From the NCBI GenBank assembly GCA_028291645.1, contig JAQGNU010000223.1:1-38313 (forward strand): a stretch of DNA of 38,313 nt. The letters run 5' to 3'. A program made the translations under genes and the position numbers. The DNA is from Nevskia sp. GTDB taxonomy: Bacteria; Pseudomonadota; Gammaproteobacteria; Nevskiales; Nevskiaceae. Shown piece by piece: positions 4,029-20,058 of the stretch (position 1 is the stretch's first letter; each line of letters begins with the position of its first letter). The notes beneath the pieces are model-generated. The model ran no database searches. It was not told the origin of the DNA and saw nothing but the letters and a program-made list of their open reading frames with translations.

Positions 4029-4037
4029 GGGTTCGGG

Positions 4038-4493
4038 TCAGAAGTAGTAACGCGAAATGGTGTCGGCGACGCAGGCCGGGCGCGTCTCGCCGTCGATCTC
4101 GACGGTGACGCGGATGACGGCCTGCAGGCCGTCGTCCTTGGTCGTCTCAGCGGCGATCAGTTCGCCGCGTCCGCGCACGCGCGCGCCGACTTTGACCGCG
4201 TTCGGAAAGCGCACCTTGTCGCAGCCGTAGTTGACGCCCATCTTCATCTTGATGTCGACGATCTGCGGCAGAAAATGCGCGCACAGCGACAGCGTCAGAT
4301 AGCCGTGCGCGATGCAGGCACCGAACAGACCATCCTTCGCGCGCACCGGATCGACATGTATCCACTGATGGTCGTCGGTGGCGTCGGCGAAGGTATTGAC
4401 GCGCTGCTGCGTAATCGTCAGCCACTCGCTCGTACCGAGCGGCTGGCCGACGGCTTGCAGAATCGCATCGGCGGATTTGAATACGGTCGGCAT
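4038..4493 (-). CDS. MaoC-like (R)-specific enoyl-CoA hydratase
   Basis: 151 residues, a single hot-dog domain. The hydratase-2 region reads FADATDDHQWIHVD, with catalytic D41 and H46; the usual glycine before the aspartate is D40. This NodN/MaoC subgroup commonly carries DHQWIHVD. The start is ATG at 4493; longer in-frame reading upstream runs into IpdF and is not coding. It lies 14 bp after ipdF and 9 bp before the thiolase, so it probably hydrates an enoyl-CoA in the same beta-oxidation sequence. Activity as a hydratase is well supported; the steroid-derived substrate is inferred. Confidence 0.88.
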   Translation of the reverse strand: MPTVFKSADAILQAVGQPLGTSEWLTITQQRVNTFADATDDHQWIHVDPVRAKDGLFGACIAHGYLTLSLCAHFLPQIVDIKMKMGVNYGCDKVRFPNAVKVGARVRGRGELIAAETTKDDGLQAVIRVTVEIDGETRPACVADTISRYYF

Positions 4494-4507
4494 GGCGTTC
4501 TGAATTC

Positions 4508-6516: not shown

Positions 6517-7670
6517 GCAAACACTGCAGCGGCGATACGTTCGCGCAGCGCGTCCGCAGTACCGAACCAGTGACTGCTGGCCTGCGCGCGCTTGAAGTAC
6601 AGCTGCGGATCGTATTCCCAGGTAAAGCCGACGCCGCCGTGCAGCTGAATCGCTTCCTGCGCGCAGTAGAAATAGGTATCGGCGGCGAGTGCAGACGCCA
6701 TCGCGCATTCCAGCGCCAGCGCTTCCGGCGGTTCGCCGTGCACGCTGTCGGCGGCATAGGCAGCCGCGCCATAAACCGCCGAACGCAAGGCTTCGATACG
6801 CACCATCATTTCCGCGCAGCGATGCTTGACCGCCTGGAACGATGCGAGCGTGCGACCGAACTGCTTGCGCGTCGCGGTATGGGCGACCGTTAGATCGAGA
6901 CAGGCCTGCGCACCGCCGAGCTGTTCGGCAGCGAGATACAGGCGCGCCAGCGCCGCACTGCGCATCGCACCGTCGATGCCGCGATGCGCATGATCGACGC
7001 GCTGCTGCGGCATCAGCGTCACGCCGTTCAGCTCAACACGAAAGAAGCGCCGCGTCGCGTCCCAGGTTTCCAGCGCGTCGATGTTCAGACCCGAGGCATT
7101 GCGCGGTACTGCAAACATGCCGGTCGCCCAATGCTGCCCACTGCGTTCATCGAGCCGCGCCGGCAGCAGCAGCCAGTCGGCGGTGCCCGCATCCGGCACG
7201 CGTGCACAGATGCCGTCGAGCCGCCAGCCTGCACCTTCGCGCCGCGCGCGTAGCACTTGCTTGCCGTCGATCCAGTCATTGGCCGATTCGTTGACCGGCA
7301 TCGTCAGCCGCAGCTTGCCTTCGGCGATCTCTGGCAGGAAGCGCTGCCGGGAAGCATCGCAGCCGCCTTCGGCAAGCCAGTTGGCGGCGAGACAGACGGT
7401 GGAAAAAAACGGCGCGCACAGCAGATGACGACCCATCTGCTCGAGCAGCAGCGCCAGCGCCACCGGACCCAGGCCAAGACCGCCGTATTGTTCCGGCACC
7501 GCGGTCGCACACCAGCCGAGTTCGCCGGCGATGCGCTGCCAGACCGCTGCGTCGAAGCCGGTCGAACTTGCCATCGCGCTGCGCACCGCCGCCGAATCGG
7601 ATGTATCCGCGAGGAAGCTCTGCGCAGCTTCGCGGATCATCAGCTGATCGTCGGTGAGGGTTAAATCCAT
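6513..7670 (-). CDS. Acyl-CoA dehydrogenase, short-type subunit; first gene of second steroid operon
   Basis: 385 residues beginning MDLTLTDDQLMIREAAQSF, a normal ACAD start. The C-terminal half has HTATRKQFGRTLASFQAVKH and QLHGGVGFTWEYDPQLYFKR. It ends there, without the YEGT/IYAGT motif that carries the base in MCAD-type enzymes. Proteins of this form are usually the partner subunit of a heteromeric steroid acyl-CoA dehydrogenase, supplying FAD contacts while the neighbour supplies the base. It overlaps the next gene by ATGA. No Shine-Dalgarno sequence is visible, and the predicted -10 box (7679-7684) ends only eight bases before the ATG, so its mRNA may be leaderless. The substrate is inferred to be a C/D-ring acyl-CoA. 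Confidence 0.87.
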   Translation of the reverse strand: MDLTLTDDQLMIREAAQSFLADTSDSAAVRSAMASSTGFDAAVWQRIAGELGWCATAVPEQYGGLGLGPVALALLLEQMGRHLLCAPFFSTVCLAANWLAEGGCDASRQRFLPEIAEGKLRLTMPVNESANDWIDGKQVLRARREGAGWRLDGICARVPDAGTADWLLLPARLDERSGQHWATGMFAVPRNASGLNIDALETWDATRRFFRVELNGVTLMPQQRVDHAHRGIDGAMRSAALARLYLAAEQLGGAQACLDLTVAHTATRKQFGRTLASFQAVKHRCAEMMVRIEALRSAVYGAAAYAADSVHGEPPEALALECAMASALAADTYFYCAQEAIQLHGGVGFTWEYDPQLYFKRAQASSHWFGTADALRERIAAAVFA

Positions 7671-7678
7671 AGTCTTTG

Positions 7679-7722
7679 ATTATCCGGGCAGTGCAGCGCC
7701 GGCTCATCACCCGTTGGGATGA
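7679..7722 (-). promoter_or_regulatory. Promoter A with 16-bp palindromic operator (second steroid operon)
   Basis: On the minus strand the palindrome TCATCC-CAAC-GGGTGA occupies 7722-7707 and is followed, exactly 22 bp later, by GATAAT (7684-7679). The same arrangement occurs at 19352-19395. There is no convincing -35 hexamer. If GATAAT is -12 to -7, the palindrome is centred near -42.5, where class II activators bind. The rest of the 7671-7866 spacer holds only a GC-rich hairpin (7834-7854, 7-bp stem, no T-run). Confidence 0.7.
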
Positions 7723-7866
7723 CTCTGCTACGGTGTTTTGCCGGCCGCGAGCCGCCCGCCGGCCAGCCGCAAGCACTGTTCGGACGCGGGGTTTCGATGG
7801 CCGCGGCGCCGCCATCCAGGCGGCAGCGCGGATGCCGGCTCGGCCGCAGCCGGCGAGCGCCTGGAC

Positions 7867-8742
7867 TCAGGTGCCGTAAACCTTCTGTGGCGGCGGCGCT
7901 TCGACCACCAGCGCTTCGACCACTGCGCTCAGTTCAGCCGGTTGCCAGCGCGCTTTCTTGTCGCGGATCTTGCCGGTCTTCCAGCCGCTGGCGACCGACA
8001 GTTTGCCGCCGTCGACTTCGAACACGCGGCCGCTGACCTTGGCCGACTGCGCCGAGCACAGCCACACCACCAGCGGCGCGACATTGCCCGGATGGAAATG
8101 ATCGAACACCGCCGCGTCGTCCGGCTTCTTCATCAGATCGGTGAAGACTTTTTCGGTCATGCCGGTGCGCGCGGCCGGCGCCAGGGCATTGGCGGTGATG
8201 CCGTAGCGGCCGAGTTCGGCGGCCTGCACCAGGGTCAGCGAGGCGATGCCGCCTTTCGCTGCGGCGTAGTTGCTCTGCCCGATCGAGCCTTGCAGACCGG
8301 CGCCGGAACTGGTGTTGATGATGCGCGCATCGACTCTCTGGCCGGTCGCTTTGACCTGATCGCGCCAGCGCTGCACCAGCCTGCTGGCGATGCAGAAGTG
8401 TCCTTTCAGATGCACCTTCACCACCAGGTCCCAATCCTCTTCGGTGAGGCTGGCGAACATGCGGTCGCGCACGATGCCGGCGTTGTTGACCACACCGTGG
8501 ACGTCGCCGAAGTTCGACACCGCAGCGTCGACGATGCGTGCCGCGCCGTCCATGCTGGTGATGTCGTCGCTGTTGGCGACCGCCTGCTTGCCGATTTCTT
8601 TCGCCACCGCTGCCGCGGCTTCGGCGCGGATGTCGTTGACGACGACGTTGGCGCCTTCCTGCGCCAGCAGCAGCGCGTATTCGCGACCAAGGCCGCTGCC
8701 GGAACCGGTGACGATGATCGTTCGGTTATCGCAGATACCCAT
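7867..8742 (-). CDS. Short-chain dehydrogenase, probable 3-hydroxyacyl-CoA dehydrogenase
   Basis: 291 residues from the ATG at 8742; the longer in-frame reading upstream is antisense noise over the thiolase. It has the NAD-binding loop TGSGSGLG (12-19), NNAG (86-89) and catalytic S146, Y159 and K163 in NTSSGAGLQG...NYAAAK. The opening TGSGSGLGREYALLLAQEGA is of the kind seen in the dehydrogenase domain of MFE-2/17-beta-HSD4 enzymes and in steroid-cluster SDRs. The C-terminal extension after the usual SDR end (KTGKIRDKKARWQPAEL) is also seen in that group. It starts 2 bp after the FadA6-like stop and is the last gene of the first operon, so oxidation of a 3-hydroxyacyl-CoA before thiolysis is the likely task. 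Confidence 0.82.
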   Translation of the reverse strand: MGICDNRTIIVTGSGSGLGREYALLLAQEGANVVVNDIRAEAAAAVAKEIGKQAVANSDDITSMDGAARIVDAAVSNFGDVHGVVNNAGIVRDRMFASLTEEDWDLVVKVHLKGHFCIASRLVQRWRDQVKATGQRVDARIINTSSGAGLQGSIGQSNYAAAKGGIASLTLVQAAELGRYGITANALAPAARTGMTEKVFTDLMKKPDDAAVFDHFHPGNVAPLVVWLCSAQSAKVSGRVFEVDGGKLSVASGWKTGKIRDKKARWQPAELSAVVEALVVEAPPPQKVYGT

Positions 8743-8744
8743 GC

Positions 8745-9893
8745 CTACAGTCTCTCGATGATGGTGACGTTGGCGACGCCGCCACCTTCGCACATGGTCT
8801 GCAGGCCGAAGCGCTTGTTGGTGCGCTCCAGTTCGTGCAGCAGCGTCGTCATCAGCTTGACGCCGGTGGCACCGAGCGGATGCGCCAGCGCGATGCCGCC
8901 GCCGTTGACGTTGGTCTGCGCATGCGGATAGCCGAGTTCCTTGAACCAGGCCAGCACCACCGGCGCAAAGGCTTCGTTGATCTCGACCAGATCGATGTCT
9001 TCCAGCTTCATGCCGGATTTCTTCAGTGCGTAACGCGTCGCCGGAATCGGTGCGGTCAGCATGAAGATCGGATCGTCGCCGAGCACACTCATGTGATGGA
9101 TGCGCGCACGCGGCTTTAGGTTGTAGCGCTTCAATGCGGCTTCCGAGACGATCAGCATCGCAGAAGCGGCATCGCCGGTCTGGCTCGACACGCCGGCGGT
9201 GATGGTGCCGCCCGGCGCCAAGGGTTCGAGCTTCTGCATCTGCTCGATCGAGGTTTCGCGCGTGGTCTCGTCGTGCTTGAGTCCCTTGGTTTCGATCGTC
9301 TCGCGATCGAAGCGGCCTTCGGCGATGGCCTTGCGCGCACGCGCGTGGCTCTCCAGCGAGAACGCTTCCATCGCATCGCGCGAGATGTTCCATTTGTCGG
9401 CGATCTTCTGCGCGCCGTAGAACTGCGACACCGGCTCGTCGCCGAAGCGCGCGGTCCAGCCGATACTGCCCGAGAACGGATCCTTGAAGCCGAGCGGTTG
9501 CGCAGCGATCATCGCCGACGAAATCGGAATCTGGCTCATGGTCTGCACGCCGCCGGCGATGACCACATCCTGCGTGCCGCTCATGACGCCCTGCGCGGCA
9601 AAGTGCACCGCCTGCTGCGAGGAACCGCACTGGCGATCGATGGTGACGCCCGGCACCGTCAGCGGTAGGCCGGCGGCGAGCCAGGCGCTGCGCGCAATGT
9701 TGCCGGCGAGCGGACCGATCGCATCGAGACAGCCGAAGATCACATCGTCGTAATCCTCGGCCGGAATGCCGTTGCGCGCGACCAGCGCCTTCAGCACATG
9801 CGCGCCGAGATCGGCGCCGTGAATCTGCGACAGACTGCCGCGGCGCTTGCCGGTCGGTGTGCGCAGCGCATCGACGATATAAGCCTCAGCCAT
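8745..9893 (-). CDS. fadA6: FadA6-like steroid ring catabolic thiolase
   Basis: 382 residues. Nucleophile C89 is in IDRQCGSSQQAV; H338 is in LAHPLGATG; C368 is in TMCEGGG. The phrases RTPTGKRRGSLSQIH, GCLDAIGPLAGNIAR, GGVQTMSQIPISSAM and the ending TMCEGGGVANVTIIERL match, from memory, mycobacterial FadA6 (Rv3556c) much better than general thiolases. FadA6 thiolyses an acyl-CoA produced after IpdAB opens the last ring. It sits between an ACAD pair and an SDR, as expected for a dehydrogenation, hydroxyacyl oxidation and thiolysis series. AGGA lies upstream of the ATG. The assignment rests on recall and should be confirmed by a phylogenetic tree. Confidence 0.87.
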   Translation of the reverse strand: MAEAYIVDALRTPTGKRRGSLSQIHGADLGAHVLKALVARNGIPAEDYDDVIFGCLDAIGPLAGNIARSAWLAAGLPLTVPGVTIDRQCGSSQQAVHFAAQGVMSGTQDVVIAGGVQTMSQIPISSAMIAAQPLGFKDPFSGSIGWTARFGDEPVSQFYGAQKIADKWNISRDAMEAFSLESHARARKAIAEGRFDRETIETKGLKHDETTRETSIEQMQKLEPLAPGGTITAGVSSQTGDAASAMLIVSEAALKRYNLKPRARIHHMSVLGDDPIFMLTAPIPATRYALKKSGMKLEDIDLVEINEAFAPVVLAWFKELGYPHAQTNVNGGGIALAHPLGATGVKLMTTLLHELERTNKRFGLQTMCEGGGVANVTIIERL

Positions 9894-9946
9894 GATTCCT
9901 GGTTTTCCTGGTTAACAAACCGCTGCAAAAAAAGTGTCGCTAAATC

Positions 9947-11002
9947 TTAAGTGAAAGTGACGCCGGGCCCCAGCGCCGCGCCGTCGGCGAAAATCGCATC
10001 GGCCACGCGCCGCTTGTGGAAAGTCTGATCGCCCCAGGCGGCATCGATTGCCCAGGCGCGCTTCATGAACATCTGCAGATCGGCTTCCCAGGTGTAGCCC
10101 ATCGCGCCATGCGCCTGCAGACTGTTGCGCGCGGCCACACGTGCGGCTTCGCCGGCGGCCAGCTTCGCGTGCGAGGCCATCACCGAGGCGCCCGGTTTGT
10201 TCTGTTCGAGCGCGTGCGCAGCACGGAACACGACCGGCTTGGCGAATTCGATTTTGACGGCGACGTCGGCGAGCTGATGTTTGACCGCCTGAAACGAGCC
10301 AATCGGCTTGCCGAACTGTTTGCGCTGCGCGGCGTGATCGATGCCGAGATCCAGCATGCGCTGCGCCAGGCCGAGCAATTGTGCCGCGATCGCCAGCGTC
10401 GCGCGATCGACGATCGCATTGCCGAGATCGCGGCCGTTGCGTGCCGGGCAGATGTAAGTCTGCCGCGACGGCGTCCATTTGACTTCATACAGCCGCCGCG
10501 ACTGATCGATACTCGGATGGCGGATCAGCTCGGCCTGCGCCGGCTTCAGCGCATGGATTTCGTTGTCGTGCCAGAGCAGCAGCAGATCGGCGAGCTGCGC
10601 ATCCGATACGAATGGATTGATCGGATGACCCAGCGCGATCCGCACGCTGCCCGCCGCAATCTTCGGCAGCCATTCCCGCTTCAGCGCGACATCGGCCGGC
10701 ATGTGATTGAACAGATGCACCGCAAGATAGGCGGTATCCGACAGCGAGTCCGGAATCGCGTAATAGCCCAGCTCCTGCTGCACCAATACCCAATCGAGAT
10801 CGCCCAGACCGATACCGTCGAAGGCTTCCGGTACCGACATCGCAGTGATGCCCTGGTCGGCCAGCTTGCCGCGCAGTTCGTGCGAGCGGCCGCTCTCGGT
10901 CTCCCAGGTTTCGCGCAACATCTCCGGCGCCGCTTCGACCATCAGGAACTTGCGCACCGCATCGCGGAACGCAATCTGCTGGCCGTCGAAAGTGAAGTCC
11001 AT
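9947..11002 (-). CDS. Acyl-CoA dehydrogenase, short-type subunit of second pair
   Basis: 351 residues from the ATG at 11002 (MDFTFDGQQIAFRDAVRKFL). A TTG at 11017 also opens the frame but lies inside a repeat element and is less likely. It contains HAAQRKQFGKPIGSFQAVKH and LQAHGAMGYTWEADLQMFMK, then ends without a YEGT/IYAGT motif, just like the subunit at 6513-7670. The central region is shortened and poorly conserved (around HPINPFVSDAQLADLLLLW). It is probably the partner of the ACAD at 11079-12242 in a heterotetramer like ChsE1-ChsE2 or IpdE1-IpdE2. The stop is 53 bp ahead of the fadA6-like start. Confidence 0.85.
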   Translation of the reverse strand: MDFTFDGQQIAFRDAVRKFLMVEAAPEMLRETWETESGRSHELRGKLADQGITAMSVPEAFDGIGLGDLDWVLVQQELGYYAIPDSLSDTAYLAVHLFNHMPADVALKREWLPKIAAGSVRIALGHPINPFVSDAQLADLLLLWHDNEIHALKPAQAELIRHPSIDQSRRLYEVKWTPSRQTYICPARNGRDLGNAIVDRATLAIAAQLLGLAQRMLDLGIDHAAQRKQFGKPIGSFQAVKHQLADVAVKIEFAKPVVFRAAHALEQNKPGASVMASHAKLAAGEAARVAARNSLQAHGAMGYTWEADLQMFMKRAWAIDAAWGDQTFHKRRVADAIFADGAALGPGVTFT

Positions 11003-11006
11003 TAAG

Positions 11007-11082
11007 GCAGTTTCCAATGGGCAGTTTGCAGTTTCCAGGCTGTTCCGAAAACTAGACGCGGGAAACTGGAAACCGGTGTCAT
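11007..11082. repeat. Dispersed CAGTTTCC/GGAAACTG element, copy 1
   Basis: The spacer between the two ACAD genes is filled by an imperfect inverted repeat with arms such as GCAGTTTGCAGTTTCCAG (11021-11038) and GGGAAACTGGAAACCGGTGT (11060-11079). A relative with the same arm words occurs at 19976-20058. No transposase is nearby. It looks like a small non-autonomous palindromic element. It runs into the end of the gene at 11079-12242 and just upstream of the start at 11002. Confidence 0.5.
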
Positions 11083-12242
11083 GAGCGCGGCAGCCCGAGC
11101 ATGCGTTCGGCGATGATGTTGCGCTGGATTTCGTTGGTGCCGGCGTAGATCGGCCCAGCCTGCGCGAACAGGAAGCCGTCGAGCCAGCCGTAGCTGCTGG
11201 CGTCCTCAGCCTGCGCCATCAATTCGCCGCGCGCGCCGAGAATCCGCATCGCGGTCTCGTGCATCAGCAGGTCGAGCTCGGACCAGAAAATCTTGTTGGT
11301 GCTCGACTCGGCGCCGATCTGTCCGCCCTTGGCCAAGCGGCAGGCGGTGCGATAGGTTGCCAGCGCATAGGCTTCGGCGCTCATCCAGCTCTTGATCACC
11401 GCATCGCGGATCGAAGGATCGGCGTCGGCGCTGGTTTGATTCTGCTTGTACAGATTCACCAGCAACTTCGCGGTCTGTTGGAAGCGCGCCGGCGAACGCA
11501 GCATCAGGCCGCGTTCGAAGCCGGCAGTCGCCATCGCGATATGCCAGCCCGCACCTTCTTCGCCGAGACGGTTCTCGACCGGCACGCGCACATTGTCGAA
11601 AAAGATTTCGGCGAAGCCCGGCAGGCCATTGAGCTGACGGATCGGACGGATCGTGATGCCCGGCAGGTTCAGCGGTAACAATACGAAGCTGAGGCCGTGA
11701 TGGCGCACCGAATTCGGGTCGCTGCGGAACAGGCCGAACAGCCAGTCGGCCCAGACCGCACGCGTCGACCAGGTCTTCTGGCCGTTGATGACGTAGTGAT
11801 CGCCGTCGCGCACGGCTTTACAACGGATCGCCGCCATATCAGAACCTGCGCCCGGCTCCGACCAGCCCTGTGCCCAGATGTCCTTGCCCGTTGCCATGCG
11901 CGGCAGGAAGCGCTTCTTCTGCTCGTCGGTGCCGAACTCCATCAAGGTCGGCGCCAGCAGGAAGATGCCGTTCTGGTTGACCCGCAGCGGCGCACCGGAG
12001 CGCCAGTATTCTTCTTCGAAGATCAGCCACTCGATCAGGTCGGCACCACGGCCGCCGACGTCCTTCGGCCAGGTCACCGCACTCCAGCATCCGCTGGCGA
12101 GCTGACCTTCCCAGGCGCGATGTGCGGCGAAACCTTCTTCGGTGTCAAAGCTCGGCAAGGCCTGCTGCGGCACCTGTTGTTCGAGCCAGGCGCGGATTTC
12201 GGCGCGGAAACGGCGCTGCGGTTCGGTGTACTCGAGTCTCAT
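11079..12242 (-). CDS. Acyl-CoA dehydrogenase, long subunit of second pair
   Basis: 387 residues from the ATG at 12242 (MRLEYTEPQRRFRAEIRAWL). The frame is open further upstream, but that part encodes the hairpin repeat. Features: WAQGWSEPGAGSDMA (123-137), INGQKTWST (152-160), and the C-terminal PIYAGTNEIQRNIIAERMLG. The MCAD glutamate position is alanine (YAGT), while E243 in GFERGLML aligns with the helix-G catalytic base of isovaleryl-CoA dehydrogenase. It likely combines with the shorter ACAD downstream into an FAD-dependent heterotetramer that introduces a 2,3-double bond in a steroid-ring acyl-CoA. The general family is certain; which of FadE30-33 it corresponds to is not. Confidence 0.88.
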   Translation of the reverse strand: MRLEYTEPQRRFRAEIRAWLEQQVPQQALPSFDTEEGFAAHRAWEGQLASGCWSAVTWPKDVGGRGADLIEWLIFEEEYWRSGAPLRVNQNGIFLLAPTLMEFGTDEQKKRFLPRMATGKDIWAQGWSEPGAGSDMAAIRCKAVRDGDHYVINGQKTWSTRAVWADWLFGLFRSDPNSVRHHGLSFVLLPLNLPGITIRPIRQLNGLPGFAEIFFDNVRVPVENRLGEEGAGWHIAMATAGFERGLMLRSPARFQQTAKLLVNLYKQNQTSADADPSIRDAVIKSWMSAEAYALATYRTACRLAKGGQIGAESSTNKIFWSELDLLMHETAMRILGARGELMAQAEDASSYGWLDGFLFAQAGPIYAGTNEIQRNIIAERMLGLPRS

Positions 12243-12243
12243 C

Positions 12244-12299
12244 GCATGCACGTCCTGTGCACGACGAAGCCATCCATGGCTTCGGGATTCAACACAAGC
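12244..12299 (+). repeat. Covarying hairpin repeat, copy 1 of 3
   Basis: A 56-base unit beginning GCATGCACGTCCTGT, with the hairpin GAAGCC-ATCCAT-GGCTTC and ending AACACAAGC. It is followed after one base by copy 2. The third copy is near sdhA. The stem letters differ between copies yet remain paired. Confidence 0.7.
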
Positions 12300-12300
12300 T

Positions 12301-12356
12301 GCATGCACATCCTGTACAAGACCGCGCCATCCTTAGCGCGGGGGTTTGACACAAGC
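12301..12356 (+). repeat. Covarying hairpin repeat, copy 2 of 3
   Basis: A 56-base unit beginning GCATGCACATCCTGT, with the hairpin CCGCGC-CATCCTTA-GCGCGG and ending GACACAAGC, in tandem with copy 1 at a 57-base period. The pair fills the 124-bp spacer between the echA20 stop (12367) and the next start (12242), oriented against transcription. Confidence 0.7.
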
Positions 12357-12366
12357 GAAACACACC

Positions 12367-13143
12367 TCACTTTTTCTTCTCCGCCTGTGTCGCGAAATCC
12401 GCCGCGCGCTTCTCGACGAACGCGCGCCGAGTCTCCGCCGAATCCTTGCTCATATAGGCCTGCAAGGTGAAGCCCTGTTCCCAGCGGTATTTGGTTTCGA
12501 GATTGCCGTCTTCGATGCCGTTGAGCGATTCCTTCGCCAGCCGGATCATCGCCGGGCTCTTTGCGGCGATCGTCTGTGCGATCGCCAGCGCGGTGTCGCG
12601 CAGCTGTGCTTTCGGCACGACTTTCTCGATCGCACCGAGCCGGTAGGCTTCGGCGGCATCGATCGACGCGCCGGTGAAATACATCGCGCGCACTTTCTGC
12701 ACCGGGAACAGCCGCTGCAGATGCGCACCACCGCCCATCGCGCCGCGATCGACTTCCGGCACGCCGAAGGTCGCGCAGTCCGAAGCGACGACGATATCCG
12801 CCGCACCGGCAAGCCCGATGCCGCCACCGAGCACGAAGCCGTGCACCGCGACAATCACCGGCACCGGGTTGCGATGCACCGCCTCGAAGCTGCGGTAGTT
12901 GCCGGCATTGACCGAGACGATCCGATCCGGCTGCGCATCGAGTTCCTTGATGTCGACGCCGGCACAGAAGCCGCGGCCCTCGGCACGGATGAGGATGACG
13001 TTGACGTCGTCCACGCGACCGAGACGCTCGATCTCGTCGGCCAGCGCGTGCCAGCCGGCATCGTTCAGCGCATTCACCGGCGGCCGGTCGATGACCAGTT
13101 CGGCAACGCCGGCGGCGATGTGAGTCTTGAACGGAGCGTTCAT
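12367..13143 (-). CDS. echA20: EchA20-like crotonase (steroid D-ring hydrolase)
   Basis: 258 residues. The words RPPVNALN, AEGRGFCAGVDIKE, GGGIGLAGAADIVVAS and FGVPEVDRGAMGGGAHLQRL match, from memory, the diagnostic regions of mycobacterial EchA20 (Rv3550). EchA20 is a crotonase-fold hydrolase that opens ring D of HIEC-CoA to give COCHEA-CoA, the substrate of IpdAB. At the two crotonase glutamate positions, the first is G110 and the second is E130, so it is not a standard hydratase, in keeping with EchA20. The oxyanion-hole glycines (61-64 and 107-108) are present. The ATG overlaps the ipdC stop as ATGA. The C-terminus is lysine-rich (AEKKK). Confidence 0.87.
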   Translation of the reverse strand: MNAPFKTHIAAGVAELVIDRPPVNALNDAGWHALADEIERLGRVDDVNVILIRAEGRGFCAGVDIKELDAQPDRIVSVNAGNYRSFEAVHRNPVPVIVAVHGFVLGGGIGLAGAADIVVASDCATFGVPEVDRGAMGGGAHLQRLFPVQKVRAMYFTGASIDAAEAYRLGAIEKVVPKAQLRDTALAIAQTIAAKSPAMIRLAKESLNGIEDGNLETKYRWEQGFTLQAYMSKDSAETRRAFVEKRAADFATQAEKKK

Positions 13144-14231
13144 GCGGTTTTCGCAAATGTTGTTGTCTGGTTCTGCGGTGCAATGTGCGCGAGACAGGCT
13201 TCGGCTTCGGCGACGATGCCGGCGATCAGTTGTTCGACGCTCGGCAGTGCATCGATCACCGCCGCCACCTGCCCGCTCGGCAACACGCCTTCGTCCGGAC
13301 GGCCATCGACCATCGCGCGTTGAATGATGACCGGCGCATTCGCCGCCATCATCGTCTGGATAGCCGAGTCACCTTCGCCGATCGCGGAAAAAAACGTCTT
13401 CGCCATGTGCGCCACCGACATGCCGGTCTGCTGGCGCCAGGCCCAGGCGCTGCTCAGCGCGACCAGCAGGCGGCGCAGCAGTCCGCCGTTTTCGAGTCGC
13501 AACAAAAACGGGTTGTCGATCATCCGCTGCGGCAGACCGTCGAGCGCGGTCGATGCGCGAATCTGCGCGGGATCTTTGACCTGCAGATAACGCTTCAGGG
13601 TTTCCGCCGGCACCGGCGAATCGCTGGTCATCAGGAAGCGCGTGCCCATCGCGATGCCGGCGGCGCCGAATGCGAGCGCACCGGCGAGGCCGCGGCCGGA
13701 GTGGAAGCCGCCGGCAGCGACCACCGGCACCTTCACCGCATCAAGCACTTGCGGCAGCAGCAGCGTGGTCGGCACCGAGCCGGTATGACCGCCACCTTCG
13801 GCACCCTGCACGGTGATGATGTCGGCGCCGAGCTGTACGGCTTTCTCGGCGTGCTTCAAGGCGCCGACGGTCGGCATGCAGAGGATGCCGGCGTCCTTGA
13901 AGCGAGCGATGGTTTTCGCATCGGGTCCGCGGCCGTAGCTGACTGCGCGCACGCGATCGCGGTGCTTGATCACGCAGTCGATCACTGCGTCGGCATTGGC
14001 CTGGAACATGTGGAAGTTGACGCCGAACGGGGCCTCGCTGGCCGCACGCACGCGCGCGATCTCGGCTTCGAGCGTTTCGGTCGACATCACCGCGGCGGCG
14101 AGGAAACCGAAACCGCCGGCTTTGCTCGTTGCCGAAACCAGCTTGCTGTCGGCGACCCAGCCCATCGCGGTCTGCACGATCGGATAACGGCAGCCGAGCG
14201 CAGCGGTCAGCGGCGTTTGCAAGGCGCTCAT
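13140..14231 (-). CDS. ipdC: IpdC-like FMN-dependent oxidoreductase (nitronate monooxygenase family)
   Basis: 363 residues, a TIM-barrel flavoprotein. The N-terminal YPIVQTAMGWVAD and GGFGFLAAAV, the central ITVQGAEGGGHTGSV (with the family histidine) and the FMN phosphate region AAGGFHSGRGLAGALAFGA...MGTRF are all present. Its position between echA20 and another crotonase, in a cluster with ipdA, ipdB and ipdF, identifies it as the counterpart of IpdC (Rv3553). IpdC acts with IpdF on the hydroxy-indanone CoA thioester before EchA20 ring opening. The start overlaps the upstream stop as ATGA. Family call is firm; the precise redox step follows from the mycobacterial pathway. Confidence 0.85.
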   Translation of the reverse strand: MSALQTPLTAALGCRYPIVQTAMGWVADSKLVSATSKAGGFGFLAAAVMSTETLEAEIARVRAASEAPFGVNFHMFQANADAVIDCVIKHRDRVRAVSYGRGPDAKTIARFKDAGILCMPTVGALKHAEKAVQLGADIITVQGAEGGGHTGSVPTTLLLPQVLDAVKVPVVAAGGFHSGRGLAGALAFGAAGIAMGTRFLMTSDSPVPAETLKRYLQVKDPAQIRASTALDGLPQRMIDNPFLLRLENGGLLRRLLVALSSAWAWRQQTGMSVAHMAKTFFSAIGEGDSAIQTMMAANAPVIIQRAMVDGRPDEGVLPSGQVAAVIDALPSVEQLIAGIVAEAEACLAHIAPQNQTTTFAKTA

Positions 14232-15106
14232 TGCAGATTCTTCTTGTTGCTCGCCGCCATCGCCTTGGCATCGACGCCGCCGAGGTTGTGGCCGGTCGTC
14301 AGCTGATTGTGCGCATGGGCGAAGTGGTGCCAGCCGAAAGCCGCGTCCATTGCCGCGCGCTTGCCCTGCAGATCTTCGACGTGATTGATCGACTGCTTGG
14401 CCAACGCCAGCGCCAGACGCGGCTGCTGGGCGATGCGCGCAGCCATCGCATCGACTTCGGCAGTCAACTGCGCGCGCGGCACCACGCGATTGACCATGCC
14501 CAGCTGCAGCGCGCGCTGCGCGGTCATCGGCTCGCCGAGGAACAGGAATTCCTTGGCGATGCGCGGATTGAGTTCGTAGGCGTGGGCGAAATACTCGACG
14601 CCGGGAATGCCCATCTTCAGGGTCGGATCGATGAAGTATGCGTCCTCGCTGGCGACAATCAGGTCACACACCCAGGCCAGCATCAGGCCGCCGGCGATGC
14701 AGGCGCCCTGCACGCGCGCGATGGTCGGCTTGGGAATATCGCGCCAGCGGCGGCACATGCCGAGGTAGACCTCCTGCTCGCGTGCGTACTGCAATTCGCC
14801 GCCGGGCTTGCCGACGTGGTCGTACCAGAGATGCGCGCGCGCAAAGCTCAGGTGCGCGTCGCGCTCCGGCGTGCCGATGTCGTGGCCCGCCGAGAAATTC
14901 TTGCCCGCACCCGCCAGCACGATGAGCTTGACCGTATCGTCGTCGACCGCGCGCCGGAACGCGGCATCGAGCGCGTAGGTCATCTTCGAGTTCTGCGCGT
15001 TGTGATAGCGCGGACGGTTCATCGTCACCGTCGCCACGCCGTCGCGGACGTCGTAGCGCACGACTTCATCGCTGACATCCTGCGGGGTGGGCGCGGGTGC
15101 GTTCAC
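14228..15106 (-). CDS. Crotonase-fold protein lacking both hydratase glutamates
   Basis: 292 residues. It is a crotonase by TMNRPRYHNAQ, GAGKNFSAGHDIG (oxyanion hole) and ACIAGGLMLAWVCDLIVASE. At the two catalytic glutamate positions of enoyl-CoA hydratase this protein has M142 (in GGLMLA) and T162 (in FIDPTLKMG), so simple water addition by the usual mechanism is doubtful. An insertion around residues 82-118 (HLWYDHVGKPGGELQ) lengthens it relative to classical hydratases. The ATG lies 5 bp after the stop of the thiolase-fold gene. It may act as a hydrolase, isomerase or lyase on a C/D-ring CoA ester; I cannot decide which. Confidence 0.82.
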   Translation of the reverse strand: MNAPAPTPQDVSDEVVRYDVRDGVATVTMNRPRYHNAQNSKMTYALDAAFRRAVDDDTVKLIVLAGAGKNFSAGHDIGTPERDAHLSFARAHLWYDHVGKPGGELQYAREQEVYLGMCRRWRDIPKPTIARVQGACIAGGLMLAWVCDLIVASEDAYFIDPTLKMGIPGVEYFAHAYELNPRIAKEFLFLGEPMTAQRALQLGMVNRVVPRAQLTAEVDAMAARIAQQPRLALALAKQSINHVEDLQGKRAAMDAAFGWHHFAHAHNQLTTGHNLGGVDAKAMAASNKKNLQ

Positions 15107-15111
15107 GATGT

Positions 15112-16299
15112 TCAGCGCTTCACGATCACGGAGGAACCGTGGCCGAACAGGCCCTGGTTCGCGGTGATGCCGACCTTGGCATTCGTCACCTGGCGCTCGC
15201 CGGCCTCGCCACGCAGCTGCCAGGCCAGTTCGCAGACCTGCGCCAGCGCCTGCGCCGGCACCGCTTCGCCGAAGCAGGCGAGGCCGCCGGAAGTATTCAC
15301 CGGCAGGCGGCCGCCGAGCTTGGTCACGCCTGCGCGCACCAGCTTGGCACCATCGCCGCGGGCACAGAGCTGCAGGTCCTCGATCCAGTCCAGCTCCAGC
15401 GCGGTCGACAGGTCATAGACTTCAGCCAGACTGATGTCCTCGGGGCCGATGCCGGCTTCCTCATAGGCCTTGCGCGGAAGCGCGGCGCGGAAGCGCTGCG
15501 GCTCGCAGGCGACGGCGGAGTCGGTCGCCAGATCCGGCATCTCGATCACCGCCGAGGCAAAGCTCGGCGTCACCGTCGAGATCGCGGCGATCCGCGGCGC
15601 ACTGGCCTTGCCGATGCGCTTCGCATAATCGAGGCTCGATACGATCAGCGCGGCGGCGCCATCGGAGGTCGCGCAGATGTCCATCAGGCGCAGCGGGTCG
15701 GCGACCATCGCCGAGGCGCGCACGTCCTCCACGGTGAATTTCTTGCGGTAGCGCGCGTAGGGATTCAGCGCGCCGTGCTCGGCATTCTTCAGCTTGACCA
15801 GCGCGAAGTCATCCTGCGTATCGCCGTAGATTTCCATGCGGCGCCGCGCGTACAGCGCGAAGTAAGTCGGGTTGGTGATGCCGAGGCGGAAGCGCACCCA
15901 ATCCGGATCGTCCGGACGCTCGCCCGGCGCCGGCTTGAGGAAGCCTTTGGGCGTGGTATCGGCGCCGATCACCAGCGCGACTTCGCACTCGCCGGACAGA
16001 ATCTTCGAGCGCGCCGCGGCGAGCGCCTGCGAGCCCGAGGCGCACGCCGCATACGAAGTATTGACCTGCGCGCCCTGCCAGCCGAGTGCCTGCGCGAAGG
16101 TGGCGCCGGCGACATAGCCGGGATAGCCGTTGCGCATCGTCGCCGCGCCGGACACGAACTGGATATCACGCCAGTTCACACCGGAATCGGCCAGCGCATC
16201 GCGCGCCGCCTTGACGCCGTACTCGACGAAATTCTTGCCCCACTTGCCCCAGGGGTGCATGCCGACGCCGAGGATCGCGATGTCCTTGTTGGTGCTCAC
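15112..16299 (-). CDS. Lipid-transfer/thiolase-fold protein (Ltp family), partner of DUF35
   Basis: 395 residues from a GTG at 16299 that overlaps the DUF35 stop as GTGA; an ATG at 16317 gives six more residues. The fold is thiolase, with the active-site-like cysteine C86 in YAACASGSQAL. The usual C-terminal GHPxGATG is replaced by ACFGEAVPAQ within NTSGGLACFGE, as in SCP-x/Ltp proteins that are not true thiolases. In actinobacteria Ltp2 with a DUF35 domain protein (ChsH2) is a retro-aldolase removing the C17 side chain. Ltp3/Ltp4 also sit next to DUF35 genes. Here the pair is embedded among ring C/D genes, so the substrate could be a side-chain or a ring intermediate. Confidence 0.85.
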   Translation of the reverse strand: MSTNKDIAILGVGMHPWGKWGKNFVEYGVKAARDALADSGVNWRDIQFVSGAATMRNGYPGYVAGATFAQALGWQGAQVNTSYAACASGSQALAAARSKILSGECEVALVIGADTTPKGFLKPAPGERPDDPDWVRFRLGITNPTYFALYARRRMEIYGDTQDDFALVKLKNAEHGALNPYARYRKKFTVEDVRASAMVADPLRLMDICATSDGAAALIVSSLDYAKRIGKASAPRIAAISTVTPSFASAVIEMPDLATDSAVACEPQRFRAALPRKAYEEAGIGPEDISLAEVYDLSTALELDWIEDLQLCARGDGAKLVRAGVTKLGGRLPVNTSGGLACFGEAVPAQALAQVCELAWQLRGEAGERQVTNAKVGITANQGLFGHGSSVIVKR

Positions 16300-16706
16300 G
16301 CGCGCACCTGCTTCCACTTCCAGGTCAGCTTGCCGTCGTCGAGCGGTTCCAGCACCAGCTCCATGTCGAGTCCGGCCTTCAGTGATGCGAGTTCGGTGCC
16401 GGTCGCCAGCTGGCCGAGCACGACCATTTTCTCCTTCAGCAATTCCACCGCGGCGATGCCGAACGGCTGGAACGGCGCGCTAGCGATGTACGGCTCCGGC
16501 GGCTGGTAGGACGCACTGGTGAACGACCACAGCTTGCCGCTGCGCGACAGCGGCACCTCTTCGAAACGCTCGCTGCTACAGTCGGGATTGCGGCAGTAAC
16601 CCTGCAACTTGGGAAAGTAATAGGTGCCGCAGACGCTGCAGCGCGAGCCGAGCAGCTGCGGTTTGTCACCGAGCGTGAACCAGCCTTCGAGGACGGGCGT
16701 GCTCAC
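16296..16706 (-). CDS. DUF35 OB-fold protein with zinc ribbon
   Basis: 136 residues. The N-terminal rubredoxin-like zinc ribbon has C23, C26, C38 and C43 (CSVC...CRNPDC). The OB-fold follows, with SGKLWSFT, PEPYIASAPFQPFGIAAVEL and a C-terminal LVLEPL...WKW. Such proteins form complexes with thiolase-fold Ltp proteins and shape the acyl-CoA site; some are essential for aldolase or thiolase activity. It is coupled to its neighbours on both sides (ATGA with the ipdB stop, GTGA with the Ltp gene), which supports a fixed stoichiometric complex with the downstream Ltp protein. Confidence 0.87.
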   Translation of the reverse strand: MSTPVLEGWFTLGDKPQLLGSRCSVCGTYYFPKLQGYCRNPDCSSERFEEVPLSRSGKLWSFTSASYQPPEPYIASAPFQPFGIAAVELLKEKMVVLGQLATGTELASLKAGLDMELVLEPLDDGKLTWKWKQVRA

Positions 16707-17527
16707 ACGGCGGCCCGGATCGCAGGCGGATTGTTCTTCACGGTCGTCGCACGCAAGTTATGCGGATCGAGTTTTCCGATCAGCGCCAGCAGTTCGGCGG
16801 TCGGCAACGGCGTTGCGCCGAGCTGCTCCGCTTTCAGTAGCGGGAAGCCGGTCGCCGCCTGCACCTGTTCGAAACTGACGCCCGGATGCAGCGACTTCAC
16901 CCGGATCGCATGAGCGGGTCCGCCGAAGTCGAGCACGCACAGATCGGTGACGATCAGCCGCAGGTCGATGTAGTCCATCTTCATGCCGGCGCTGAAACGT
17001 GCCGGGTTGTAGCCGACGCCGGACACCATGTCGACTTCGCCGGACACGAACACGCGCGGACCATGGTTCGGCACGAACATCGAGTTCATGTGATTGATGC
17101 TGTTACCCGGCAGGCCGCGCACGCCGAGAATCGCCGACTTCGGTTTCTCGTAGCTGCCACCGATCACGGAAAGATTCGACTGGCCGAAACGGTCGATCTG
17201 GCTGGGTCCGATCATCGCGTGGCGGCGCCCGCCCCAGACACATTCGAACACACGGTCGAACGACATGTAGCCTTCGTACTTCGGCCCATAAGCATTATCT
17301 CTCTCGCCGCGCGGACCGAGCGGAATTGGCTCGGATACCAGGAAGGTTTCGCTGTCGGTCATCAGCAGTTCCGGCGAGTGCGTCAGTTTCGCCAGGCTCG
17401 CACCGAGTCGCGGCACGATGCCGATGCCGGAGGCCAGCACTTCGCCGTTGTCGCGCCAGGCTTCGGACGCGGCGACGATCATCAACTCGGCCAGCGAGAT
17501 CACTTCCTTGGTTTTGACGTCGTCCAT
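16703..17527 (-). CDS. ipdB: IpdB, beta subunit of COCHEA-CoA hydrolase (CoA-transferase fold)
   Basis: 274 residues. It is CoA-transferase family I beta-like. Visible regions include ASGIGIVPRLGASLA (32-46), the GGRRHAMIGPSQIDRFGQSN block and LGVRGLPGNSINHMN, followed by CVLDFGGPAHAIRVKSLHPG. With IpdA it hydrolyses a C-C bond of COCHEA-CoA, opening the last steroid ring to MOODA-CoA, rather than transferring CoA. The gene begins 2 bp after the ipdA stop; the two should be made together. The Comamonas counterparts are known as ScdL1/ScdL2. The order ipdA-ipdB is the same as in mycobacteria. Confidence 0.9.
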   Translation of the reverse strand: MDDVKTKEVISLAELMIVAASEAWRDNGEVLASGIGIVPRLGASLAKLTHSPELLMTDSETFLVSEPIPLGPRGERDNAYGPKYEGYMSFDRVFECVWGGRRHAMIGPSQIDRFGQSNLSVIGGSYEKPKSAILGVRGLPGNSINHMNSMFVPNHGPRVFVSGEVDMVSGVGYNPARFSAGMKMDYIDLRLIVTDLCVLDFGGPAHAIRVKSLHPGVSFEQVQAATGFPLLKAEQLGATPLPTAELLALIGKLDPHNLRATTVKNNPPAIRAAV

Positions 17528-17529
17528 GT

Positions 17530-18411
17530 TCAGAACACCGGCGTACGTAATTTGCCGACGCGTTCGGCGCCACCGACCTTGACCAGATACTCAGCCTCGC
17601 TGCAGCGCACGAACTCGTTCATGTAGGCCTCCCAGCCGCCCTCTTCGGCGGCCGAGGCGTTGTAGCGTTTCAGATGCTCCAGGTCCCAGCCGTAGTCCGG
17701 ACTGCTGTAGGTCGGATGCGCGCCGCAGGGCGCATGCACCACGCCGCTGACCAAGTAGCGCTCGAAGAAATTCAGACGCGCACTCGCCGCGTCGAGTTCG
17801 AGCTTGTCGTGCAGCACTTCGGTGCTGACGTAGCAGCGTTCCGCGGCGCGCGCGAACAGGTGATCGAACAGCGGATCGTTGGCGCGCATCAGCGTATTGC
17901 CGAGGCGATCGGCTTCGTTGACGTGCAGCAGCGCGGCATCGAGCTTGAGTGCGGGCATCGCCAGATAGACTTCGCCGTCGTCGTACGGCGAGGCGATCGT
18001 CTTCAGTTGCGGATTGCGCGTCAGCACGTCGCTGCCGAGGCCGCAGCGCGTCGGCAGGAACGACATGCGCATGCCGGCGGCACGCAGGCCCCATTCGAAC
18101 ATGCCTTCGTCGAGTTCCATCACCTGCAGTGCGCCGGCTTCGCGCGCCTTGCGGAAATACGGCTCCAGCGGAATCGCATCCATCGTGACAAAGCCGTAGA
18201 TCAGCTTCTTGACCTTGCCGGCCGCGCACAGCATGCCGACTTCGGGACCGCCGTAAGCGACGATGGTCAGATCCTTCAACGACGAGCGCAGGATTTCGCG
18301 CACCAATGCCATCGGCTTGCGCCGCGGACCCCAGCCGCCGATGCCGAGCGTCATGCCGTCGCGCAGTTGCGCGACGACCGCTGCGGCCGTGAGTTGTTTG
18401 TCGAGCGCCAT
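17530..18411 (-). CDS. ipdA: IpdA, alpha subunit of COCHEA-CoA hydrolase (CoA-transferase fold)
   Basis: 293 residues. The N-terminal region TLGIGGWGPRRKPMALVRE (21-39) and AYGGPEVGMLCAAGKVKKLIYGF (52-74) are the CoA-transferase alpha signature. The stretch VMELDEGMFEWGLRAAG (97-113) holds E99, E102 and E106, one of which should be the glutamate used for C-C hydrolysis in IpdAB. FLPTRCGLGSDVL follows, as in IpdA proteins. It is the second gene of the first operon, 13 bp after the dioxygenase stop and 2 bp before ipdB. The pairing with EchA20, IpdC and IpdF supports ring opening as the function, not ketoacid CoA transfer. Confidence 0.9.
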   Translation of the reverse strand: MALDKQLTAAAVVAQLRDGMTLGIGGWGPRRKPMALVREILRSSLKDLTIVAYGGPEVGMLCAAGKVKKLIYGFVTMDAIPLEPYFRKAREAGALQVMELDEGMFEWGLRAAGMRMSFLPTRCGLGSDVLTRNPQLKTIASPYDDGEVYLAMPALKLDAALLHVNEADRLGNTLMRANDPLFDHLFARAAERCYVSTEVLHDKLELDAASARLNFFERYLVSGVVHAPCGAHPTYSSPDYGWDLEHLKRYNASAAEEGGWEAYMNEFVRCSEAEYLVKVGGAERVGKLRTPVF

Positions 18412-18424
18412 ATGGGAAGTTGGT

Positions 18425-19315
18425 TTAACTGAAGCCCACTGAGAAATCGTGACCCCAGATGCTGACCTGTTTGGTATATGTGGTCTGCCAGGTCGCCGGG
18501 TCTACCGAGATGCCGCCCCAGCCGTATTCGAGCGCGAAGTTGCCCGGCGTCAGCAGGTAGAACGACGTCATCTTGTCGTTCTCGTGCTGGCCGAGTGTCG
18601 CCATCAGCTTCGCGCCATTTTTTTCGCGGCGCAGTTCGGCACGATCGACTTCGGCCTGGTCTTCGACCTCGACCATGATGTGCACGCAGCCCGATGGGCT
18701 CGGCATCTCCGCCAGCGCGACGCTGTGGTGCCGGCCGCTGGCCGCATGCAGGAAGTAGAGGCGAATCACCGGCGCATCCGGTGCCGGCTGGAAATTGAAC
18801 ACGTCGGACAGACCGAAGCCGAGCACCTCGCGATAGAACTTCAGCGTCTCGTCGAACGGCAGCGCCGGCAGCACGGTGTGACCGACGCCGTATTTTCCCG
18901 TCTTGAAACTGCGCACGCCGACCGGCGACTTGAACGGCACGCTGCCGCCGTCGTAACCCCAGCCCAGTTCATGCTGATTGCCGGCCGGATCGGCGAACTT
19001 GACCAGCGCCTTCACGCAACGCGCTTTGCATAACGCCGCATCGCCATCCTGCAGTTTCACGCCAGCCTGCTGCAGCGTTTCGACCGCAGACTTGAACGCG
19101 GCCGCGTCGGCCACTTCCCAACCGGACACCAGATAACGGTCTTCGCCGCCCTTGACCACCGCCAGGCGAAACTGGCGTTCGTCCATTTTCAGATACAGGC
19201 CAGCGTCCGGCGCATCCGCGGTTTGCGTACCGAGCACCTGCTCGCCGAACTGGCGCCAGCGGCTGACGTCGGTGCTCTGGGCGACCACGTACGACAATGC
19301 TTGAATCTTCACCAT
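18425..19315 (-). CDS. hsaC: Extradiol ring-cleavage dioxygenase, HsaC/TesB type
   Basis: 296 residues from the ATG at 19315; the frame is open further upstream through the promoter but that part is not coding. It has two vicinal-oxygen-chelate domains. Fe(II) ligands are H146 (GVGHTVL), H212 (CVHIMVEV) and E263 (FALEYGWGG), with second-shell H197 (GRHHSV), H244 (GQHENDKM) and Y253. The ending SIWGHDFSVG matches, from memory, HsaC of mycobacteria, which cleaves ring A of 3,4-DHSA by meta-cleavage; TesB does this in Comamonas. It leads the first operon, behind promoter B. It is the only ring A/B enzyme in the window, so HsaA, HsaB and HsaD must be elsewhere or absent. Confidence 0.87.
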   Translation of the reverse strand: MVKIQALSYVVAQSTDVSRWRQFGEQVLGTQTADAPDAGLYLKMDERQFRLAVVKGGEDRYLVSGWEVADAAAFKSAVETLQQAGVKLQDGDAALCKARCVKALVKFADPAGNQHELGWGYDGGSVPFKSPVGVRSFKTGKYGVGHTVLPALPFDETLKFYREVLGFGLSDVFNFQPAPDAPVIRLYFLHAASGRHHSVALAEMPSPSGCVHIMVEVEDQAEVDRAELRREKNGAKLMATLGQHENDKMTSFYLLTPGNFALEYGWGGISVDPATWQTTYTKQVSIWGHDFSVGFS

Positions 19316-19351
19316 GGGAGCGGAATTCTGTCGGCGGGCTGAGGTGGGCAG

Positions 19352-19395
19352 ATTATCGAGACGTAGCGCCGAAAGAGCTTCATCCGTTGGGGTGA
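19352..19395 (-). promoter_or_regulatory. Promoter B with 16-bp palindromic operator (first steroid operon)
   Basis: On the minus strand the palindrome TCACCC-CAAC-GGATGA spans 19395-19380 and is followed after exactly 22 bp by GATAAT (19357-19352). The ATG of the dioxygenase is 36 bases beyond the -10 box. The half-sites and the CAAC centre match promoter A (7679-7722). No -35 hexamer is evident, and the palindrome sits where a class II activator would bind. The remaining 19396-19591 spacer holds no gene I can support. Confidence 0.7.
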
Positions 19396-19972: not shown

Positions 19973-19975
19973 GAA

Positions 19976-20058
19976 ACGGTTTCCGGTGTGCAGTTTCCAG
20001 TTTCCAGTAAACCGCATGGCCTTCCGCTGGTCCGGAAACCGCAGATTGAAAACTGGCC
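19976..20058. repeat. Dispersed CAGTTTCC/GGAAACTG element, copy 2
   Basis: The pdxJ-acpS spacer contains GCAGTTTCCAGTTTCCAG (19990-20007), then GGAAACCGCAG (20034-20044) and GAAAACTGGCCA (20048-20059). The words and their spacing resemble the element at 11007-11082. It overlaps the region just upstream of the acpS TTG. Confidence 0.45.

Follow-up and report, generated by a model that had tools for sequence, protein, structure and literature searches.

Candidate class II activator sites of a TesR-type regulon before two steroid-degradation operons of Nevskia sp.

Genomic context of the two palindromes

The DNA considered here, hereafter the window, is the whole of contig JAQGNU010000223.1 (C44; 38,313 nucleotides) of the Nevskia sp. 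assembly GCA_028291645.1 (G000; 3.83 Mb in 234 contigs), and our subject is a pair of palindromes lying in front of two operons for steroid degradation. In gene content both operons agree with the ring C/D part of aerobic steroid degradation; operon 1 begins with an acyl-CoA dehydrogenase gene and operon 2, which extends from 19315 down to about 7867, with hsaC, the gene of an HsaC/TesB-like dioxygenase (Table 1). In the NCBIfam scan the latter product scored 262.6 bits with HsaC (cut-off 450) and 270.3 bits with biphenyl-diol dioxygenase, also under the cut-off, and the lipid-transfer-protein-type thiolase of operon 2 matched its family above the cut-off. The names IpdA/B and Ltp2, given after family and gene order, are putative, and so is the assignment of window genes to single steps of the pathway.

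A preliminary description of this DNA had reported two copies of TCAYCC-CAAC-GGRTGA, each followed by GATAAT after exactly 22 bp and situated upstream of the gene that opens a steroid operon. All of this was borne out: both copies are present with no mismatches, the spacing holds for both, and gene and family scans placed each of them in front of the leading gene of such an operon, on the minus strand. The exact pattern TCAYCCN4GGRTGA occurs twice in the whole 3.83 Mb genome, both times in the window, and the backwards pattern does not occur; the flanks of the two copies are unlike each other. Looser forms are common, and information is therefore carried by the full form alone, exact or nearly so, at these promoters: with up to two mismatches allowed, nine matches fall in the window where 4.5 are expected, a number reached in 3 of 100 shuffles, and the short exact form is present in 58 of 61 relatives.

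Table 1. Coordinates of the palindromes, promoter hexamers, operon genes, further candidate sites and candidate regulator (C87, a second contig of the same genome)
Feature	Position	Strand	Remark
Candidate operator copy 1, palindrome TCATCCCAACGGGTGA	7722-7707	minus	predicted at -50 to -35, centre -42.5
-10-like hexamer GATAAT	7684-7679	minus	22 bp after copy 1
Operon 1, first gene: acyl-CoA dehydrogenase	6513..7670	minus	best NCBIfam match IpdE2, below its cut-off
Operon 1, rest of core: acyl-CoA dehydrogenase, SDR, MaoC-like dehydratase, thiolase	2808..6708	minus	family scans
Candidate operator copy 2, palindrome TCACCCCAACGGATGA	19395-19380	minus	predicted centre -42.5
-10-like hexamer GATAAT	19357-19352	minus	22 bp after copy 2
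Operon 2, first gene: HsaC/TesB-like extradiol ring-cleavage dioxygenase	18425..19315	minus	family scans
Operon 2, rest: IpdA/IpdB-like CoA-transferase subunits, ChsH2-like OB protein, Ltp2-like thiolase	within 7867..18411	minus	
Operon 2, rest, continued: two enoyl-CoA hydratases, nitronate-monooxygenase-type protein, two acyl-CoA dehydrogenases, thiolase, SDR	within 7867..18411	minus	
Candidate site between isomerase-like gene and regulator	C87:26047		exact palindrome; GAATAT at 23 bp, isomerase side
Candidate site before HsaD-like gene	C87:32894		exact palindrome; GAGCAT at 22 bp
Candidate site before FAD-oxidoreductase operon	C87:8559		profile R1, 15.9 bits, E 0.05; AATAAT at 21 bp
Candidate TesR-type regulator	G000:C87:26315-27490		search for LuxR-type helix-turn-helix

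Promoter architecture

The preliminary description had seen no -35 hexamer, and this observation stood: at the 46 sites that have ATAAT exactly, nothing at spacers of 15-19 resembled TTGACA more closely than shuffled upstream sequence did. At these 46 sites the hexamer starts 22 bp after the palindrome in 32 cases and 23 bp after it in 14, and the -10 box is close to the sigma-70 consensus. With transcription assumed to start 7 nt after the hexamer, the palindrome would span -50 to -35 and be centred at -42.5. Class II activators contact RNA polymerase from sites centred near -41.5 or -42.5 at promoters where the -35 element is poor. Having no -35 element, these promoters would make the polymerase dependent on an activator touching it. 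The best reading of the comparative sequence data is that the two palindromes are class II activator sites of a wide regulon governed by TesR, the positive regulator of steroid genes in Comamonas testosteroni; the candidate regulon with a class II-position activator site proposed in the preliminary description is supported by comparison among genomes.

The same position could also suit a repressor, which at -50 to -35 would block the polymerase until released by a steroid metabolite, in the manner of KstR2. A palindrome over the -35 region is indeed a common place for a repressor, and in actinobacteria the degradation of HIP, a process whose control is the point of likeness between KstR/KstR2 and the present system, is governed by the repressor KstR2, according to PMC8399759. 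Promoters with no -35 above chance should, however, be weak unaided, the site is clear of the -10 box, and its spacing is held at 22-23 bp; furthermore, TesR is described as a positive regulator, and KstR1/2 homologues, which are TetR-type repressors, are reported in PMC8399759 to be absent from bile-acid-degrading Proteobacteria. We therefore regard repression as very improbable. The EdcR system of Caenibius tardaugens likewise has a palindrome common to two steroid operon promoters of one cluster, and differs in that its operator TnnCnnTACnAnTnGTAnnGnnA overlaps the -10 box and is bound by a repressor (PMC8700777); compared by eye, the window sites do not fit the consensus TnnCnnTACnAnTnGTAnnGnnA over the -10 box.

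A third way to read the block would be as the -35 element of a promoter for an extracytoplasmic function (ECF) or other alternative sigma factor. CCCAAC is frequent within it, and -35 elements of ECF promoters typically have AAC. Against this, the block is a 16-bp palindrome ending 22 bp before the -10 box, too symmetric and too far away for a -35 element, the -10 box resembles that of sigma-70, and many relatives carry palindromes without AAC before an isomerase-like gene introduced below, which together leave this explanation scarcely credible.

Conservation within Nevskiales

Conservation was followed in an order sample of 85 genomes of Nevskiales, including Solimonas, Nevskia, Stagnimonas, Hydrocarboniphaga, Sinimarinibacterium and Fontimonas; the division into genomes inside and outside the order is nominal, and the labels of some uncultured genomes look wrong. 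At E <=1e-60, hsaC was found in 43 of the 85 genomes, leaving 42 hsaC-negative. The exact full form TCAYCCCAACGGRTGA was present in 22/85 genomes (reversed control 0/85), and all 22 carriers have hsaC, against 0/42 carriers among hsaC-negative genomes; many rows within a group are related species, these counts are not independent, and the Fisher values computed on co-occurrence take no account of phylogeny. Random occurrence of the motif in relatives, away from steroid genes, had been named in the preliminary description as the outcome that would speak against a regulon; this was examined, and the regulon reading survived it.

Promoters were also picked by gene, taking 300 bp upstream of hsaC and of the acyl-CoA dehydrogenase gene at 30 loci each; the upstream scans covered 30 of 49 hsaC, 30 of 46 acyl-CoA-dehydrogenase and, for the section on further sites, 30 of 75 regulator matches. 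A separate set of 25 sites was picked by the exact motif, and conservation of the 16 bases there is given by construction. Among the gene-picked promoters, a site with a -10-like box was found at 28/30 hsaC and 24/30 acyl-CoA-dehydrogenase loci, L100 being doubtful among the 24. L092 and L104 had been missed through the scanning frame and proved to be plain sites on inspection of the upstream regions, and the hsaC genes of L079 and of the genome of L083 (L136) are preceded by a site with a weaker -10 box, GAAGAT or GATACT. Allowing two mismatches, TCAYCCCAACGGRTGA was recovered in 45 of the 60 gene-picked regions; in 1,200 shuffled regions it was met once with two mismatches and six times with three.

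The two halves of the site are unequally conserved: hardly any variation is seen in the right half extended by two bases (GGRTGAWG), and the left half is variable (TMRYCH). The centre is CAAC in 21/60 gene-picked promoters of the order and otherwise mostly NAWY, and its orientation is reversed at hsaC in L080 and L090. Alignment A2 holds 46 of 52 sites from the order, with five near-duplicates and the doubtful L100 omitted. In one Nevskia-type genome (G004, L054:8867-8882) the space between hsaC and a FAD-oxidoreductase gene divergent from it holds just one palindrome, with GATAAT at 22 bp on the hsaC side and the CAAC centre reversed.

A sister site outside the order

The comparison was widened to 53 hsaC/tesB loci outside Nevskiales, including Pseudomonas, Comamonas, Aromatoleum, Marinobacterium, Colwellia, Massilia, Polaromonas and Cupriavidus. 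A sister site, TAGTCTCAACGGACGATG, stands in the same layout at 52 of these 53 promoters, 57-73 bp before the start codon and with a -10-like box about 22 bp downstream. Scored with the pattern TAGTCTNAWYGGACGATG, the 53 promoters gave 46 sites with no mismatch, five with one and one with two. Half-site bases differ between the order (GGRTGA type) and the outside genomes (GGACGA type); layout and core are common to both and may be written as T(C/A)(A/G)(C/T)C(C/T)-N4-GGR(T/C)GA.

Over the 52 outside loci the information content per base was 1.83 bits for the site and 1.20 for the -10 box, against 0.34 for the spacer and 0.13 for the sequence immediately upstream of the site. These values bear on the possibility of chance or of common descent without function, through a recent promoter duplication or a frequent repeat. 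The looser forms noted above, with a two-mismatch pattern not rare in the window and the short form in nearly all relatives, count in favour of such an origin; the dissimilar flanks of the two window copies, the limitation of the exact full form to hsaC-positive genomes, and orthologous flanks at 0.13 bits beside a site at 1.83 argue the other way, so that we give this explanation almost no credence.

A profile (R2) was built from the 41 sites of alignment A3, which left out 11 similar rows, mostly Pseudomonas, from the 52 outside sites, and was run on eight outside genomes at E <=0.1. It returned 24 matches; eight are hsaC promoters from its own training set, which match by construction, and 16 are independent. 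Half of these 16 lie beside homologues of HsaD, SDR_c, ech2/acad2a or thl1 (>=45% identity), six beside weaker or generic homologues and two beside none.

Further candidate sites on contig C87

Another contig of the same genome, C87, also carries steroid genes: those for a KshA-type Rieske oxygenase, 3-ketosteroid-dehydrogenase-like and other FAD oxidoreductases, SnoaL-type proteins, an HsaD-like hydrolase and acetaldehyde dehydrogenase. The gene that we call isomerase-like (for ketosteroid-isomerase-like) matches only Pfam SnoaL_2, and its name is putative. The relaxed pattern TCRYCCN4GGRYGA occurs exactly at eight places in the genome (reversed control 3), four of them at steroid genes. The other four are three sites inside called open reading frames (ORFs) without evident steroid role (C9, C55, C121) and one (C63) that precedes the first ORF called on its stretch by about 255 bp; none has an ATAAT within 34 bases on either side, and the same negative holds for C87:26047 and C87:32894. 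A profile (R1) of the 46 order sites matched the two window sites at 38.1 and 35.0 bits, as members of its training set do by construction; its third match in the genome, C87:8559, is independent. The regulon would thus hold at least three further candidate sites on C87, making five candidate sites in the genome.

The gene next to C87:26047 encodes the candidate regulator considered in the next section. In the 400 bp upstream of its counterparts at 30 Nevskiales loci, TCRYCCN4GGRYGA was exact in 21/30 and within one mismatch in 27/30; shuffles gave no exact match and 26/1,500 at up to one mismatch, and the reversed pattern 0/30. Other LuxR genes, a thin control with eight usable of 29 loci, gave no exact and one one-mismatch case. 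Judged from the gene neighbourhood, the palindrome on the regulator side more likely serves the isomerase-like gene, and an autoregulatory reading of it was weakened when it was seen to follow that divergent gene.

In two relatives, exact palindromes, TCACCCTAACGGGTGA at L250:3962 (G004) and TCACCCTTTGGGGTGA at L246:4022 (G070), precede an SDR gene downstream of the regulator; these SDR genes are possibly further members of the regulon.

A candidate regulator

The preliminary description had held that the regulator is not encoded in the window, which agrees with our finding a candidate on another contig, and had offered a TetR- or LuxR-type protein; the evidence points to the LuxR-type part of that proposal, in the form of a TesR/TeiR relative on C87. 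No TetR was present among the 40 window ORFs scanned, a TetR search of the genome not having been made. The candidate came from a search of five genomes for LuxR-type helix-turn-helix (HTH) domains, among weakly scoring proteins of about 400 aa. It is 37.5% identical over 373 aa to a LuxR-type protein of Comamonas sp. NoAH and 36.1% identical to one of Pseudomonas sp. 5P_3.1, whose genes share a contig with hsaC/tesB at a distance of about 15-16 kb, with about 16 kb in Comamonas. The Comamonas protein is presumed to be TesR because its place fits the published 18-gene cluster from tesB to tesR.

Against a Pfam cut-off of 23.5 bits, the putative GerE domain at the C-terminus of the candidate scored 24.3 bits when the genome was searched and 20.5 bits with the whole protein; a PAS match was weak. 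In its relatives GerE scored 25.8 (Comamonas), 27.2 (one Pseudomonas protein) and 20.9 bits (the other Pseudomonas paralogue). No autoinducer domain appeared in the Pfam output up to E 0.1, and no hydropathy stretch typical of a membrane helix was found in six TesR-type proteins, where the highest 19-residue mean was 1.05-1.45. The family is present in 46/85 order genomes (E <=1e-20), namely in 43/43 hsaC-positive and 3/42 hsaC-negative ones; two of these three (G001, G029) have an acyl-CoA-dehydrogenase match and the third (G041) carries a distant protein of 25% identity. Within the genus of the window it occurs in 8/8 hsaC-positive and 1/10 hsaC-negative genomes, and outside the order in 40/40 hsaC-positive genomes searched (40 of the 53 loci).

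Reading only the best match per genome, and 30 of the 40 outside genomes, we found the recognition helix RNTARTHLR in 30/30 Nevskiales regulators and RNTARAHLR in 29/30 outside loci, the signature not being found in L292. The Thr/Ala difference runs parallel to that between GGRTGA and GGACGA sites. The second Pseudomonas paralogue (L235), which is outside the order, has the Thr form and speaks against a link of helix and site; the parallel, being one contrast between two clades, is only suggestive.

A TesR-type paralogue, 63% identical to the C87 protein, is encoded at G000:C144:5381-6502, with no exact palindrome in the 14 kb read around it. A 920-aa protein with kinase, TPR and winged-helix parts, encoded divergently from hsaC in G017 (L050:5465-8227), was also considered as regulator and was rejected because the genome under study has only one partial match to it (37%, residues 203-388, inside the kinase match).

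Proposed mechanism and its weighing against other regulators

We consider it quite probable, from sequence comparison, that the palindromes are operators of one steroid regulon and are bound by the C87 TesR/TeiR-type protein as a class II activator. A dimer of this LuxR-family protein would bind TCAYCC-N4-GGRTGA near -42.5, take the place of the missing -35 element and recruit RNA polymerase to GATAAT. The trigger would be a steroid or a steroid breakdown product, and the activator would turn on operon 2, which runs from HsaC to SDR, together with operon 1, which starts with the acyl-CoA dehydrogenase. The identity of the binder, its activation, the transcription starts and the inducer are all predicted. 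What singles out the TesR-type protein as best candidate is its kinship with the known Comamonas positive regulator of the same genes, its putative HTH, its co-occurrence with hsaC and the further sites that surround it.

Several points weigh against this proposal. Four of 30 acyl-CoA-dehydrogenase promoters (L093, L094, L105, L111) are without the site, and so is one hsaC promoter outside the order (L197, without TAGTCTNAWYGGACGATG). Two of the three C87 sites have poor -10-like sequences (GAATAT, GAGCAT), and relatives likewise have a weak -10 box on the isomerase side. The HTH of the candidate reaches 20.5 bits over the whole protein, under the Pfam cut-off, the best regulator match of the hsaC-positive G074 is only 41% identical, and the regulator gene lies on a different contig from the window operons. 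Co-occurrence with hsaC is, moreover, expected of any gene of the steroid pathway.

Other points of this kind favour a different arrangement, in which the operators are real and are read by another transcription factor, with the TesR-type protein acting upstream, for example as a membrane kinase. The isomerase-like gene stands divergently beside the regulator in 28/30 loci, and at the two loci lacking it (L263, L265) no palindrome upstream of the regulator comes closer than two mismatches; the regulator-side palindrome thus tracks the isomerase-like gene and not the regulator, and its proximity is therefore weak evidence for the TesR-type protein as binder. In the reviews PMC6678751 and PMC8399759, TeiR is cited as a membrane protein or a kinase (with kinase activity in PMC6678751) and not as a plain DNA-binding activator. 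Other regulators, too, occur near steroid genes in single genomes: a TetR near the cluster of G022, a MarR near that of G021, and the kinase-type protein mentioned above. On the other side, no other regulator was seen to be kept beside the clusters at the loci whose ORFs were gone through, by eye and with some of the ORFs scanned; a putative HTH is present in the TesR-type protein, which lacks a membrane-helix hydropathy stretch; and its recognition helix differs between groups whose sites differ, though the L235 paralogue breaks the pattern. On balance, another reader of the operators seems unlikely to us.

A broader version of the proposed TesR regulon may be put forward tentatively, as possible rather than probable. 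It would be ancient and extend across steroid-degrading Beta- and Gammaproteobacteria with a nearly frozen promoter layout, made up of the palindrome at -42.5 and a GATAAT-like -10 box with no -35 element; TesR/TeiR would be no membrane kinase but a soluble class II activator that responds to a ligand and binds DNA directly, and the Thr/Ala change in the helix would have shifted specificity between GGRTGA and GGACGA.

Relation to known systems

TesR was described in PMC6895838 as needed to induce tesB-tesR and two other steroid clusters of C. testosteroni TA441. The Nevskia system is most likely a member of this TesR/TeiR kind, working like a LuxR-type class II activator. It shares with the Comamonas regulon a related LuxR-type protein with steroid genes around its gene and the tesB orthologue hsaC as one controlled first gene, and Comamonas-type tesB promoters carry the sister site; it differs in that identity of its protein with the presumed TesR of Comamonas is only about 37%, its site is of the GGRTGA and not the GGACGA type, and its regulator lies off the hsaC contig. 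Likeness to LuxR class II activation from a lux box at -42.5 consists in the predicted centre at about -42.5, the absence of a -35 element and the putative LuxR-family HTH. The lux box is 20 bp long, whereas the present site has 16 bp and another sequence, and for the regulator Pfam reported PAS weakly and an autoinducer domain not at all.

Knowledge of regulation in bile-acid-degrading Proteobacteria is called limited in PMC8399759, where TeiR-like genes of P. stutzeri Chol1 are also mentioned, and a similar LuxR-type gene is mentioned for Caenibius in PMC12239570. A report of tesR-like genes only in C. testosteroni is cited in PMC6895838; the regulator family detected in 40/40 outside genomes differs from it. 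The TesR/TeiR operator, its spread and the five sites were not found in the literature searched, and the original TeiR paper (PMC344414) or subscription papers could hold the operator.

The sites supply an operator open to testing, a candidate for its regulator and a target list reaching from Nevskiales to Pseudomonas and Comamonas, and set a direct DNA-binding role against the membrane-kinase role reported for TeiR. If the proposal is true, they would offer a direct handle on the switching-on of steroid breakdown, with possible uses in steroid biosensors and in predicting steroid degraders from promoter sequence.

Neighbouring genes and minor observations

At operon 1 only 8 nt separate the -10 hexamer from the start codon of the acyl-CoA dehydrogenase gene (7670-7684, minus strand), and a nearly leaderless mRNA is therefore predicted. 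A short distance from palindrome to start (34-36 bp) was seen in 8/30 loci, operon 1 included. The gene order of operon 1 is similar in the relatives G017 and G040; the operon is closed by the gene of a BNR/YCF48-like protein at 1579-2811, which in both relatives is followed by that of a protein of about 800-870 aa, RND/MMPL-like by eye. Beyond the steroid operons, a housekeeping block assigned by Pfam adjoins them at 19592-31630, with ACPS, PdxJ, RecO, an Era-like GTPase, RNase III, signal peptidase and LepA, and further with a trypsin-PDZ protease, RseB, RseA and a sigma-70-type protein.

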